The notes beneath the pieces are model-generated. The model ran no database searches, was not told where the DNA came from, and saw nothing but the letters and a program-made list of their open reading frames with translations. A stretch of 26,833 nt of DNA, from positions 1 through 26,833 of IMG/VR virus record IMGVR_UViG_3300047564_001122. One strand, given 5' to 3'. This document shows positions 6,861 through 23,769 of this stretch, one piece after another. Source of the stretch: a virus. Made by a program: the position numbers and the translations under genes. Each line of letters starts with the position of its first letter. The first letter of the stretch is position 1.

Positions 6861-8318
6861 ATGGGATACCAGTTCAATCCGTTCACGGGCAATCTTGACA
6901 TCGTTGGTGACGGCGGTGGTGGCGGTGGTGACGGTGGCGACATCACGGCAGTCACAGCAGGCACCGGCCTGAGCGGCGGCGGCACCAGCGGCTCAGTGAC
7001 GCTGAGCTTGGCCAACACGGCCGTGACGGCCGGCAGCTACACCTACGGCTCGTTCACGGTTGACGCGCAGGGGCGGATCACCAGCGCCAGCAACGGCACA
7101 GCTCCTGTCACGGGAGTCACCGCGGGCACGGGCCTCAGCGGTGGCGGGGCCGGTGGAGGGGTGACACTCACCCTGGCCAACACGGCCGTGACGGCCGGCA
7201 GCTACACCTACGGTTCGTTCACGGTTGATGCCCAGGGGCGGATCACCAGCGCCAGTAACGGTACGGCTCCTGTCACCAGCGTGACGGCCACCGGGCCGAT
7301 CAGCAGCAGTGGCGGCACCACGCCAACGATCAGCACCAGCATGGCAAGCAACCGCCTGTTGGGCCGCACTACGGCAGGGACCGGCGTTGCTGAGGAGATC
7401 AGCATTGGCACGGGCCTGAGCCTCACTGGCGGCACGCTGTCCAGCACGGGCGGTGGTGGTGGTGGCGGCACATCCCTGGATGTGCAGGTCTTCACGGCCA
7501 ACGGAACGTGGACAAAGCCGGCTAATGCAGAGCTGGTAAAGGTCTGGATGGCCGGCGGTGGCGGTGGCGGTGGCTCGGGCCGCAGGGGCGCATCTGGCAC
7601 CGATCGTGGTGGTGGTGGCGGTGGCGGTGGTGCTGCCTGTGTTTACTTTGAGGCCAATCCATCACGATTTAATGCAACAGAAGCGATTGTCATCGGAGCT
7701 GCTGGAGTTGGCGGCGCTGGGCCAACTACCAATGATACCAATGGCGCAAATGGCACCATAGGCGGCACTACAACATTTGCGGGCATTAACGCCGTAGGCG
7801 GCAACTTTGGCTCTGGAGGATCAACAACTGGCGGCGCCGGAGGAGCGGCAAGGGCATTTACTTGTTTCTATCAAGGGTTTGATGCCGCCCTGGCTTCTAC
7901 TATTGCCGGCGGGGATGGATCCGCTACCGGCTCGGGTGGTACCATTTCCGCTTGCACGGGAATTAGATCAAATGGCGGCGGCGGCGGCTGTGGAATTACA
8001 TCTACAAACACTAGAGTTGGAACAGGTGGTTCCTCGCAAGGAATTTCTGGCGGAACAATCGGCACAGTTTTCCCAGGCGGTAGCGCAATAACAGGAGACG
8101 GAAGTAATGGCCAAGACGGCAGCCTCATTCGTTATTTTGGTGTAGGTGGCGGCGGTGGTAACGGTCATCCAACCGGGTCGGGTGGCCGAGGAGGTGATGG
8201 CATTGCCTATGGCGCAGGCGGCGGCGGTGCAGGTGCAAGCCTCAATGACAATGTTGGCGGCAGAGGCGGCAATGGTGGACCTGGCGTTGTTGTAATCATC
8301 ACCACGATCAAGCCATGA
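6861..8318 (+). CDS. Tail fibre/adhesin with tandem repeats and glycine-rich C-terminal domain
   Basis: The 485-residue protein is likely a receptor-contacting fibre. Residues 1-30 ([19 protein letters not shown]) form a short attachment region. Residues 31-140 are two 55-residue repeats containing [20 protein letters not shown], a module common in fibres. Residues about 150-210 carry [19 protein letters not shown], also typical of fibres. From about 212 ([20 protein letters not shown]) to the end is a polyglycine domain with runs of 6-8 Gly and repeated GGNG/GGAG turns, like the Gly-rich C-terminal domains of tail adhesins. Base use shifts to AT-richer from about 7640, inside the Gly-rich part, suggesting a separately acquired receptor-binding end. 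Its last four bases overlap the next gene (ATGA). A fibre gene between head genes and gpFII is unusual. Confidence 0.8.
6951..7280 (+). repeat. Two 165-bp in-frame tandem repeats in the adhesin gene
   Basis: Repeat 1 spans 6951-7115 and repeat 2 spans 7116-7280; each encodes 55 residues. The second two-thirds are nearly identical at the DNA level (for example, the stretch around 7012-7050 recurs at 7177-7215), while the first third has diverged. This indicates a fairly recent duplication within the fibre shaft, and the repeats could recombine to vary shaft length. Confidence 0.85.
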
Positions 8319-20088: not shown

Positions 20089-20816
20089 TGGCACAAGCAG
20101 ACCTCAACGTCGCCAACGCATCTGGTGCTTCCTTCCGGCAGGACATCAACAATCAGCTGCTGGCCTTGGGCACCCTGCAGAGTGGCGCCTCCGCACCGAG
20201 CACGACCTACGCCTACATGCTGTGGGCGGATACCGCAAACGACCTACTGAAGGTCCGCAACAGCGGCAACAGCGGCTGGATTGAGGTCGGCACCCTATCG
20301 CTGGAGAACTGGGGCTTTGGCCGATTGCGGCTGGAGACCACCAAGCTGACCACCAGCGGCACCTCTGTCGACTTCACCGGCATCCCCAGCTGGGCAAAGC
20401 GGATCACGTTGAGCTTGGCTGCTGTCAGCCTGAGCGGCGCCAGCAACCCCGTCGTGCGGCTGGGTGACTCCGGTGGCATTGAGACCAACAACTACCTGGG
20501 CGCCACCTCCCTGGTTGGCCCGACGACCACCACCGGCTCCTATGCCCACTCCTCCACCTCTGGCTTCAACCTGCTGGGTGCGACCCCATCGGCAGATACT
20601 GTCGATTTCCACGGCTCCCTGATCCTCACGCTTGTCGAGGCATCGTCCAACACCTGGTCCTGCATGGGCAACATGGCGCGGACTGACGTGATCCAGGTGA
20701 ATCAGATTGCTGGCAGTAAGGCATTGTCAGCCACGCTTGATCGCATCCAAATCACTACCGTCGGCGGCGCCAACACCTTCGACGCTGGTAAGGCCAACAT
20801 CATCTATGAAGGTTGA
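20088..20816 (+). CDS. Tail fibre-like protein after J
   Basis: The 242-residue protein starts with a module (LNVANASGASFRQDINNQ, then GASAPSTTYAYMLWAD and NSGNSGWIEVG) that recurs at the N-terminus of fibre proteins in phages; it probably docks to J or a tip protein. Residues about 80-242 are a Ser/Thr/Gly-rich beta domain (IPSWAKRITLSLAAVSL) ending in a short strand, possibly a jelly-roll-like receptor-binding domain. Start overlaps the J stop (TAATG). It is the second candidate adhesin here besides 6861-8318. Confidence 0.8.
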   Translation: MAQADLNVANASGASFRQDINNQLLALGTLQSGASAPSTTYAYMLWADTANDLLKVRNSGNSGWIEVGTLSLENWGFGRLRLETTKLTTSGTSVDFTGIPSWAKRITLSLAAVSLSGASNPVVRLGDSGGIETNNYLGATSLVGPTTTTGSYAHSSTSGFNLLGATPSADTVDFHGSLILTLVEASSNTWSCMGNMARTDVIQVNQIAGSKALSATLDRIQITTVGGANTFDAGKANIIYEG

Positions 20817-20855
20817 GCTGTCTTCATAGCCTGAAGGGGACCTAGGCCACTTGTT

Positions 20856-21089
20856 GTGGACGACACCAGCCACCCATGGACAAGCGCCTGGCCACAGCTC
20901 TTGATCTTGGTAGCCGCATCCTCCGTGATCGCTACGGGCGGGATGTTCATATCGACCGTGGTGGGCCAGGCCAGGCTGGAGACCACCCTGTCGACGCTGC
21001 TGCGGACGGTGGAGGAGATCAAGGTAGACCAGCGGGATTGGCGCAATCAGATCGATCAGCGGGTGCGGGCCTTGGAGGTGAAGCAATGA
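20856..21089 (+). CDS. Small membrane protein, holin/spanin candidate
   Basis: The 77-residue protein starts at GTG 20856. Residues about 13-36 (PQLLILVAASSVIATGGMFI) form one membrane segment, followed by a heptad-like helix (LETTLSTLLRTVEEIKVDQRD). This resembles small lysis proteins such as holins, holin regulators or inner-membrane spanins. AAGGGGA at 20834-20840 is a possible ribosome site, 15 bases upstream, a little far. It overlaps the next small membrane gene (ATGA at 21086-21089), and the endolysin follows. Role inferred from topology and context only. Confidence 0.7.
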   Translation: MDDTSHPWTSAWPQLLILVAASSVIATGGMFISTVVGQARLETTLSTLLRTVEEIKVDQRDWRNQIDQRVRALEVKQ

Positions 21090-21316
21090 AGCGCCTCGCG
21101 GCCTTGATCGGTTCCGCCTCGCTGCTCAGCGTCGCGATCGGCAGCGTCTACCTGGTCGACTGCCGCCGGCATGCTCGCGGCCTGGACCAGATCGATCGCT
21201 GTTATCTCACGTCGTTGCCGCTGATGGGTATCGGCACGGCAGGTGCTGGTGCCTTCCGCATTGGCTACAACACCTTCAACCCTGCCCTGCGGAAGAAAGA
21301 GGAGGGTGAAGGATGA
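21086..21316 (+). CDS. Small membrane protein in lysis cluster, holin candidate
   Basis: The 76-residue protein has an N-terminal hydrophobic segment at about 4-24 (LAALIGSASLLSVAIGSVYL) ending at C26 and a weaker second hydrophobic segment at about 42-60 (LTSLPLMGIGTAGAGAF), then a basic/acidic tail. Two membrane segments would fit a class II-like holin; the VDC sequence is a poor lipobox because of Asp before Cys, so a lipoprotein is less likely. It overlaps its neighbours on both sides (ATGA upstream; GGATGAG with the endolysin), so all three are translated together. Confidence 0.68.
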   Translation: MKRLAALIGSASLLSVAIGSVYLVDCRRHARGLDQIDRCYLTSLPLMGIGTAGAGAFRIGYNTFNPALRKKEEGEG

Positions 21317-22383
21317 GCACCAAGCAAACCGTCCGGCTGCTGGATCTGTTCCGCTACTACAAGGGCTTGCCACATCAGATGGCCGCCATCACGGAGCTGC
21401 AGGAGGCCATGCCGGCCGGCTTGCTCAGCCGTGACAACGGCTGGTTCAAGACTTGGAGTGTCGACGGCAAGCAAGCACCAGAGCCCGCATGGTGGGCCTC
21501 AGCCCGTGGCATCGTCTCTGAGTTCGAGGGCTGTGAACTCACGGCCTACCCAGACCCTGGTACCGGTGGCGACCCTTGGACCATCGGCTATGGCCACACG
21601 GGGCCTGAGGTGCAGCCAGGAATGAAGATCACCAAGGCGGTCGCCGAGGACTACCTCCGTCAGGATCTGCAGGATGCCGCTGATGGTGTGTTCCAACTGC
21701 TGTCGCTGGCGATGGACTGGCGACCGCAGCAGCAGGCGGCACTGATCTCATTCGCGTTCAATGTCGGCCTTGGTGGGCTGGGCGATTCCACCCTGCGGCG
21801 CAGGCTGCTGGCAGGGGAGGACCCGGCCACTGCCGTGAAGGAGGAACTGCCGCGGTGGAACAAGGGCGGCCATGGCGTGATGCCTGGGTTGACGCGGCGC
21901 AGGGCGGCGGAAGTGGCCCTGTTCTGCTCGCAGCCTGCCCTGGCCCATGCACCGCAGCAACCAGCGGTGATCAGGCACAACTCACCGTTCACGGCACGGC
22001 TGACGCCGAACGTCACCCTGGGCGACTTTGCCCTGCAGCAGGATGCCAGGCGGTTTCAGCAGCAACACCAGGTCGATACGGCGGCGCTGTTGGCGAACTT
22101 CCTCGAGCGGGTGAAGCGCAATCTGGGCGGCACCATCGTCATCACCAGCGGCTACCGTCCGCCGGCCATCAACCGATCGGTCGGTGGTGCTTCTGCCAGT
22201 GAGCACCTATTTGACGCCCCGGGCGTTGGGGCGGTGGACTTCTACCTTGAGGGTGTGGACATCAACAAGGTGCAAGCCTTCTGCGATCGGTACTGGGACT
22301 ATTCGGTCGGCTACGGCGCTCCCAAGGGTTTTGTCCACTTGGGCATCAGGAAGGGCAAGCCTCGTCTGCGCTGGGATTATTGA
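21313..22383 (+). CDS. Bifunctional endolysin: GH24 lysozyme + M15 peptidase
   Basis: The 356-residue protein would cut both glycan and peptide parts of murein at lysis. After about 60 extra N-terminal residues of unknown role, a GH24 lysozyme domain spans about 63-210 with the E72 (SEFEG), D81 and T90 (WTIGYGHT) catalytic pattern, plus AFNVGLGGLGDSTLRRR and a closing LTRRRAAEVALF helix. Residues about 235-356 resemble M15-type D-Ala-D-Ala peptidases: ITSGYRPPAINRSVGGAS, then zinc-ligand candidates H298 (SEH), D309 (AVDF) and H342 (FVHLGI). The H298-D309 spacing is four residues longer than usual. No signal peptide is seen, so a holin is needed. AGGAGGG at 21300-21306 is a strong ribosome site. 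Confidence 0.92.
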   Translation: MSTKQTVRLLDLFRYYKGLPHQMAAITELQEAMPAGLLSRDNGWFKTWSVDGKQAPEPAWWASARGIVSEFEGCELTAYPDPGTGGDPWTIGYGHTGPEVQPGMKITKAVAEDYLRQDLQDAADGVFQLLSLAMDWRPQQQAALISFAFNVGLGGLGDSTLRRRLLAGEDPATAVKEELPRWNKGGHGVMPGLTRRRAAEVALFCSQPALAHAPQQPAVIRHNSPFTARLTPNVTLGDFALQQDARRFQQQHQVDTAALLANFLERVKRNLGGTIVITSGYRPPAINRSVGGASASEHLFDAPGVGAVDFYLEGVDINKVQAFCDRYWDYSVGYGAPKGFVHLGIRKGKPRLRWDY

Positions 22384-22559
22384 GGCACTGGCAGCCCCTT
22401 GCTGCGGCATAGCGCACGCAGCTTCTCAATCGCTCGCTGGCCGCAACGATCCCGGCAGCAGACACCACCGCAACACACCTGCCACCACGGCTCCCCTTCA
22501 ATCTCCACTACCTCAATCCGTGGCTGCTCCGCAGACTGGTTCATGATCCCATCGTTCAT
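22377..22559 (-). CDS. Cys-rich 60-residue hypothetical protein
   Basis: The - strand frame encodes 60 residues with an acidic start (RIEVVEIEGEPWWQVCC) and a cysteine cluster CCGGVCCRDRC at about 29-39, followed by a basic helix (RAIEKLRALCRSKGLP). Six cysteines in a short span suggest zinc binding or disulphides. It ends 7 bases inside the 3' end of the endolysin gene on the other strand and diverges from the NblA-like ORF, whose start is 23 bases away. ATG is at 22559 or at 22544 (MNQS). No strong ribosome site. Not recognised. Confidence 0.55.
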   Translation of the reverse strand: MNDGIMNQSAEQPRIEVVEIEGEPWWQVCCGGVCCRDRCGQRAIEKLRALCRSKGLPVPQ

Positions 22560-22582
22560 GTCTCGTGAGCTTCTCGAATTGG

Positions 22583-22909
22583 ATGGTCCCGGAACTCAGT
22601 CTGACGATGGAGCTTGGACTGGAAGCGGCCAGGCGTGAACTGCACCAGATGAATCGCGACGAAGCAATCGCGATGGCCGATCAATTCATGGGTCGTTCTG
22701 TCATGCAGGAGGTCTGCCTGCGCAACAGCCTCAAGCGGGTGGCAGAGCTTGAGATTCAACTGGCGATCATGCAGGCTGATCCCTATGTCAATGGCAAGAC
22801 AAGTTGCCCGGGGCAGGAGCGCACCCGACGCCATGGTATTCGCGGGATGTGGAGCACGCTGGCGCATGCCATCGGTGCTGGTGGCAAGGGTGCAGCAGGT
22901 GAAGCCTGA
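22583..22909 (+). CDS. NblA/Ycf18-like small protein (putative phycobilisome degradation factor)
   Basis: From ATG 22583 the protein has 108 residues (GTG at 22565 would add 6). Residues about 3-55 match the NblA pattern without gaps: ELSL..EL.L...R.E.HQM.RDEA, followed by a second helix with Met/Glu and ending NSLKRV. In NblA proteins the equivalents are ELSLEQEF.L, a QMS.EQA turn and a closing LLK. NblA is a helical-hairpin adaptor that directs phycobilisomes to Clp proteolysis; several freshwater cyanophages carry it. Residues beyond about 70 are unrelated, Gly/Arg-rich and overlap the sigma gene on the other strand. The match is from memory of the family, so this is a candidate only. It may be expressed as the last late gene, 199 bases after the endolysin. 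Confidence 0.5.
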   Translation: MVPELSLTMELGLEAARRELHQMNRDEAIAMADQFMGRSVMQEVCLRNSLKRVAELEIQLAIMQADPYVNGKTSCPGQERTRRHGIRGMWSTLAHAIGAGGKGAAGEA

Positions 22910-23769
22910 ACGGCACCCAGCAGGACCCCTAGGCGATCGCGGGCATCACTGATCAATCCTTCCACCTCCCGCATCCGTAGGCCCTCTATACGGGCCAGAG
23001 CGGTGATGGATTGCGGGCTGCCATTCAAGCCGTAGTGCCCCATTACCAGCCGCTGCTGCAGGGGATCCAGTGTTGTGATCGCTGCAGTCAGGTTCTCACG
23101 TCGCACCAGATCATCAAGCTGATCGATCCAGTTCCCTTCACCATCGGCTAGCAGGCTGCCTAGTGGGCTGTGCTCATCGTCACCTGCGGCAGCATCCAAT
23201 GACGCACATGGCATGGCCATCTGCAGGATGGCAGCCAATCGATCTTCGGTGACGCCCATCCGGTGGGCCAGCTCATGGCGTGATGGCCGGTGGTTGCCTT
23301 CTGCCGCAAGCTGCCGCGTTGCCGCCAACATCTGACCCCAGACTTTGGGATACGTGGTCGGCAGTCGAATCGTATGGGACTGGCCATCGATCGCATTGCC
23401 GACCCCTTGGCGAATCCACCAATAGGCGTAGGTGGAGAACTTGTAGCCGCGTGCGGGATCAAACAGCTCGACGGCACGGATCATGCCCAGGTTGCCAGCC
23501 TGCACTAGGTCCATGAACTCGAGTGAGGTGCGACGACCGATGCGTTGCACGACATGGACCACCAGCCGGAGGTTGGCGCGCACCATTCGATCCTTGGCGC
23601 GCTTGCCGATGCGCTTCACGCTGCGTGGTGCGTGCTCTGACCCGTCGGGATGATCGAGCCAGGCACGCACGGCATTGCCAAGGGTGATCTCTTCTGCGGC
23701 GGTCAGTAGCGGCTCACGGCCGATCTGATCTAGGTACCAGCTGACATCAGACCCTTCGGCTGTCGTCAC
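22783..23769 (-). CDS. Sigma-70 family factor, cyanobacterial group-2-like
   Basis: The 328-residue protein would bind host RNA polymerase core and choose promoters. Region 1.2 is at about 7-36 (DVSWYLDQIGREPLLTAAEE). Region 2 is at about 60-126 with MVRANLRLVVHVVQ, DLVQAGNLGMIRAVE and GYKFSTYAYWWIRQG (2.3/2.4, melting and -10 contact). Region 3 is at about 130-210 (RLPTTYPKVW). Region 4 is at about 225-282, with a recognisable but divergent HTH (QSITALARIEGL...VEGLISDARDRL), suggesting altered -35 choice. Region 1.1 is missing. The YL..IGR.PLLT.AEEI.LG pattern is typical of picocyanobacterial group-2 sigmas. A tail (283-328), Pro-rich then basic, overlaps the NblA-like ORF. Start GTG is supported by GGAGGT. 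Confidence 0.93.
   Translation of the reverse strand: MTTAEGSDVSWYLDQIGREPLLTAAEEITLGNAVRAWLDHPDGSEHAPRSVKRIGKRAKDRMVRANLRLVVHVVQRIGRRTSLEFMDLVQAGNLGMIRAVELFDPARGYKFSTYAYWWIRQGVGNAIDGQSHTIRLPTTYPKVWGQMLAATRQLAAEGNHRPSRHELAHRMGVTEDRLAAILQMAMPCASLDAAAGDDEHSPLGSLLADGEGNWIDQLDDLVRRENLTAAITTLDPLQQRLVMGHYGLNGSPQSITALARIEGLRMREVEGLISDARDRLGVLLGAVQASPAAPLPPAPMACASVLHIPRIPWRRVRSCPGQLVLPLT

Follow-up and report, generated by a model that had tools for sequence, protein, structure and literature searches.

Does a small open reading frame (ORF) lying between an endolysin gene and a sigma-factor gene of a siphovirus encode a relative of NblA, the protein by which cyanobacteria dismantle their light-harvesting antennae? 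The question was raised by an earlier note, made from the DNA letters without database searches, on a 26.8-kb IMG/VR virus record of a lambda-type siphovirus that was analysed here over its whole length (hereafter "the window"). Among the isolates in our phage collection its nearest relative is Synechococcus phage S-LBS1, with 53% identity between the terminases. The features on which the argument depends are as follows (positions in the window):

21313..22383, + strand: endolysin (lysozyme plus M15 peptidase), the upstream gene of the module
22377..22559, − strand: small conserved antisense ORF of 60 aa, starting divergently 5 nt from the NblA-like start (counterparts: S-LBS1 A31, S-CBS1 gp25, KBS-S-2A 00009)
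22565..22909, + strand: divergent NblA-like gene, 114 aa from its probable GTG start at 22565, with an N-terminal Trp motif and under purifying selection
22589..22735, + strand: NblA-homologous core, PELSL...NSLK, comprising predicted helix 1, a tight Met-Asn turn and the first part of helix 2 (PSSM, hhalign, AlphaFold)
22736..22777, + strand: predicted lengthening of helix 2 (RVAELEIQLAIMQA), kept across the phage family (..RIAxLE..) and not found in NblA (alignment, AlphaFold)
22783..22909, + strand: C-terminal tail, antisense to the sigma-factor 3' end, of variable length and low model confidence
22783..23769, − strand: phage RNA polymerase sigma factor, cyanobacterial RpoD-like, sharing 127 nt at its 3' end with the NblA-like gene

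The gene and its surroundings

The reading frame on the + strand that ends at 22909 is present and real, but the ATG at 22583 from which it had been read (108 aa) is probably not its start. Members of the phage family described below share an N-terminal motif W-(M/L)-x-x, whose nearly invariant Trp precedes the core and, by the family consensus, lies upstream of this ATG; the GTG at 22565 is therefore the probable start and MSFSNWMVPELSL (114 aa) the probable product. Comparison of the core with that of a sister phage revealed 10, 2 and 25 changes at codon positions 1, 2 and 3, respectively (dN 0.11, dS 0.88, dN/dS ~0.13). The gene is thus under purifying selection, and the ORF corresponds to a real protein that is selected as a protein.

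The C-terminal extension (approximately residues 67–108 if counted from the ATG) is indeed absent from normal NblA, as the earlier note had remarked, but most of it is encoded opposite the 3' end of the sigma-factor gene, and its length is not fixed: in the sister phage the ORF continues to 139 aa. The tails of several family members are basic and amphipathic. In the comparison of the window with the sister phage, selection on the tail is inseparable from selection on the sigma factor, because the tail is antisense to that gene and the third codon positions of both genes coincide. Such a register of third positions, seen throughout the tail-to-tail overlap (22783–22909), is the one that imposes the least mutual constraint on the two genes.

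A scan for promoters and terminators found none. The starts of the NblA-like gene and the small ORF point away from each other across just 5 nt, which makes it probable that the former is transcribed as part of the late operon. The order endolysin (+), small ORF (−), NblA-like gene (+), sigma factor (−) is common to the window, S-LBS1, S-CBS1 and KBS-S-2A, and in the 80 phage loci that we collected with the endolysin as anchor, an NblA-like gene was found in 46, every time on the endolysin strand. In S-CBS3 the slot after the endolysin is occupied by an HNH endonuclease gene (20605–20904 of locus L005), and in three S-CBS3-like loci (L069, L075 and L081) the sigma factor is present and an NblA-like gene was not detected. 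Elsewhere in the window, positions 6861–8318 encode a glycine-rich, tail-fibre-like ORF with near-identical repeats.

Relationship to NblA

The gap-free alignment of the first ~55 residues with NblA, originally made by eye, was reproduced with an ungapped position-specific scoring matrix (PSSM) of 51 columns built from 36 NblA sequences. The ORF ranks first among the 282 ORFs of the window (score 2.5, against −12.6 for the runner-up), with MVPELSL...RNSLK as its best-scoring segment, and of 20,000 shuffles that preserve the composition of the protein only 2 score as high. Across 82 related phage loci (8,153 ORFs), the same matrix gave its three highest scores to this ORF, its homolog from the sister phage and protein A32 of S-LBS1. 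The gap-free resemblance to NblA therefore goes beyond chance.

Taken alone, the window protein has no match to the Pfam family of NblA (PF04485) and stays below every Pfam and PHROG cut-off; searches of Pfam, PHROGs and NCBIfam returned only noise (SP_0191-like 0.016, Smr 0.16), as did sequence searches of the PDB. The EQ pair that is invariant among the NblA references is replaced by TM, while ELSL is retained. Ser49 and Lys51 align with Leu51 and Lys53 of Anabaena NblA, reportedly described by Bienert in 2006 as the C-terminal phycobiliprotein-binding residues, and are not conserved across the phage family. In hhalign the single sequence yields just 12% against NblA, so that the claim of homology rests on the family.

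The sister protein P0002 is 78% identical to the window protein, and NblA is the sole family among 24,736 Pfam models that it matches at E ≤ 10 (13.2 bits, E 0.13; 14.4 bits in another search), with residues 4–52 aligned to profile positions 1–49/50. Because these scores, like the family as a whole, remain under the curated gathering cut-off of PF04485 (25 bits), we do not file the protein as a member of PF04485. The profile check that the earlier note had proposed thus comes out empty for the lone window sequence, and the outcome is reversed by its sister sequence and by the family profile. The phage family was put together from the 80 endolysin-anchored loci; further members are A32 of S-LBS1 (33% identity to the window protein, at an equivalent location), gp26 of S-CBS1 and CPKG_00010 of KBS-S-2A.

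A profile built from 17 phage members, with no NblA included, detected the NblA of phage Ma-LMM01 (E 0.003) and partly preselected NblA-like genes of host cyanobacteria (E down to 8e-8) among ~15,000 ORFs. Whole genomes offered the cleanest test. Searched against those of 40 NblA-bearing cyanobacteria, the profile placed the canonical NblA genes first: PF04485 genes from 16 genomes account for 17 of its 22 matches at E ≤ 0.1. Of its matches in 201 Cyanobiaceae genomes, the 15 that were examined all belong to a picocyanobacterial NblA-like family. The hhalign comparison of the phage family gave 82% with NblA over 48 columns and 96% with the picocyanobacterial family over 50 columns. The maximum over 600 column shuffles was 9.7%, the NblA value being far above those of its own 200 shuffles, and real endolysin and sigma-factor alignments, taken as 102 windows of sixty columns, reached at most 1.4%; on these controls convergent resemblance was rejected. 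Judged from these sequence comparisons, the window gene very likely encodes a divergent member of the NblA superfamily, homologous to NblA, and several profile tests, independent of each other, bear out the suggestion of an NblA-like protein encoded by a siphovirus in the sense of remote homology. The gene is widespread in cyanosiphoviruses and is annotated as hypothetical in the isolates S-LBS1, S-CBS1 and KBS-S-2A; a cyanosiphovirus member may already have been listed in the set of Nadel et al. 2019.

AlphaFold, run with 20 family sequences as input, models the core as helix 7–22, a two-residue Met-Asn turn and helix 25–63 (mean pLDDT 91.8); in the full model helix 2 spans residues 25–65 and the tail has low confidence. 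The predicted fold is that of NblA, a helix-turn-helix with a longer second helix, in agreement with the helical hairpin expected at the outset, here for the single chain. Neither the full model nor the core, submitted to Foldseek against the PDB and BFVD, returned a credible match or retrieved NblA, which we take as uninformative because the protein has two helices only.

Host and phage relatives

The resemblance to NblA/Ycf18 of cyanobacteria (PF04485; structures 1ojh, 2q8v, 2qdo and 3cs5) comprises a gap-free core of ~50 residues with a helix-turn-helix, the ELSL start, the turn M-(S/N)-x-(D/E)-x-A and the closing LK. The phage protein differs in its score below the Pfam cut-off, its replaced EQ motif, its added N-terminal Trp, a second helix longer by ~14 residues and its variable C-terminal tail; core, longer helix and tail together make 114 aa here, as against ~60 residues in NblA. 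S-LBS1 A32, S-CBS1 gp26 and KBS-S-2A CPKG_00010 are true members of the family with a shared module order, although ELSL is kept only in the freshwater members (the window and S-LBS1), whereas the marine S-CBS1 and KBS-S-2A have EQEL and EEQL, and the tails differ.

Published phage NblA proteins (Ma-LMM01, PaV-LD, MaMV-DC, S-SCSM1) are likewise phage-borne, and that of Ma-LMM01 is matched by our family profile; in contrast, they are 54–79 aa long and are encoded by large myoviruses or by PaV-LD, outside an endolysin/sigma-factor cassette. The earlier view that phage NblA genes belong chiefly to phages of freshwater and of filamentous hosts is outdated, since podoviruses and myoviruses from marine and estuarine waters have been predicted to carry divergent nblA genes, according to the mention of Nadel et al. 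2019 in PMC9602691. Expression of phage NblA from metagenomes (marine ones included) and from freshwater phages leads to loss of phycobilins (PMC9602691).

The picocyanobacterial NblA-like family is present in 142 of the 201 Cyanobiaceae genomes, in 1–7 copies; canonical PF04485 was absent from the nine picocyanobacterial genomes first tested. Phage and host families match each other's profiles in both directions, and the profile of the host family also recovers the published NblA of S-SCSM1 (ORF237) and gp049 of PSS2. Unlike the phage genes, the host genes are chromosomal and their products lack the N-terminal Trp and the helix-2 extension. Some copies form close divergent pairs (e.g. in L264 and L276). 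One member of the phage type is encoded on a contig of 5.6 kb (C136; loci L210/L223) that was binned with a Cyanobiaceae genome and is possibly a prophage or a co-binned phage. As cited in PMC7439483, Nadel et al. 2019 reported a divergent nblA-like gene in Synechococcus WH8102, and we infer that the host family found here is the same gene.

Members of the host family occur also in small genomes that lack an ApcE-like protein and encode at most one phycobilisome (PBS) linker; the superfamily is therefore not tied to whole phycobilisomes. Four regions around host NblA-like genes, read by eye, contain no recognisable phycobilisome genes beside them, and co-occurrence with PBS linkers does not separate the small genomes that have a host NblA-like gene from those that lack it.

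Proposed function and its alternatives

NblA links the chaperone ClpC to phycobiliproteins, whose helices it mimics (PMC7966870, PMC4103541); in crystals it is a dimer (PMC7966870), which forms a four-helix bundle, and its conserved N-terminal motif binds ClpC (PMC4103541). By homology, the antenna-degradation role is probable for the phage protein, and our main reading, to which we assign a probability of roughly 0.6, is that it is a divergent NblA-superfamily adaptor of picocyanobacterial siphoviruses that promotes phycobilisome disassembly and Clp proteolysis late in infection. The protein would pair as a helix-turn-helix dimer, one face of which would contact phycobiliproteins, and its N-terminal ELSL segment would contact the ClpC chaperone of the host. 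Expressed late, as we suppose, it would promote the disassembly of phycobilisomes and their proteolysis by Clp, so that amino acids might be freed and light capture by the host lowered. Two observations count against a role confined strictly to phycobilisomes: the EQ pair of NblA is lost in the window protein, and members of the host family are present in small genomes that lack an ApcE-like protein.

The best-surviving alternative, which we consider unlikely though worth keeping in mind, is an NblA-fold Clp adaptor with a target other than the phycobilisome, which would deliver a different protein, of host or phage origin, to ClpC or would block the adaptors of the host. It would fit the multiple copies of NblA-like genes in host genomes, found even where full phycobilisomes are missing, the strong divergence of the phage proteins (33% identity between the window and S-LBS1), and the conserved N-terminal Trp and lengthened helix 2 that NblA lacks. 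Nevertheless, the phage profile, when run against whole genomes, still ranks canonical NblA genes at the top, and the host strain of S-LBS1, TCC793, is rich in phycoerythrin (PMC6157547).

Less probable again, at about the level of an outside chance, is an NblA-derived regulator of the neighbouring genes, in which the protein or an antisense transcript would control the sigma factor or lysis with no role in proteolysis. In its favour, the 3'-to-3' antisense overlap with the sigma-factor gene is conserved (65–232 nt in 10 of the 11 loci that have both genes), and the gene starts back-to-back with the small ORF; yet a second large group of phages has the gene 3.2–5.2 kb downstream of the endolysin with no sigma-factor gene detected nearby, and the purifying selection at the codon level indicates that the protein itself matters. 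An unrelated small helical-hairpin protein that came to look like NblA through shared amphipathic helices is very improbable, for although the proteins are short, helical and of low identity, with no score above curated cut-offs and no answer from Foldseek, real helical control alignments score far lower, and what the searches of whole genomes bring up is NblA genes, aligned in the same gap-free register, and not the many other helical proteins.

The antenna-degradation adaptor, our preferred reading, bears on how these phages treat the photosynthetic apparatus of their hosts. Cyanosiphoviruses have been described as lacking psbA and psbD, and other auxiliary genes have been suggested as possible replacements (PMC6157547). 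The NblA-like gene, which many of them carry, would take that place with a reversed logic, breakdown of the antenna versus maintenance of photosystem II. More tentatively, and with somewhat less than even odds, we propose that a core gene of picocyanobacterial siphoviruses is an NblA-type adaptor that dismantles the antenna instead of propping up photosystem II; it would have an architecture of its own, marked by the Trp cap, the lengthened helix 2 and the basic tail, and would be firmly embedded in a cassette of lysis and sigma-factor genes. Whether the NblA-like gene acts as a replacement of this kind can be tested directly, since S-LBS1, S-CBS1 and KBS-S-2A have been isolated and their Synechococcus hosts are in culture. 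The analysis also gives a name to a family annotated so far as hypothetical, which the profiles link both to canonical NblA and to a poorly studied NblA-like family of the hosts.
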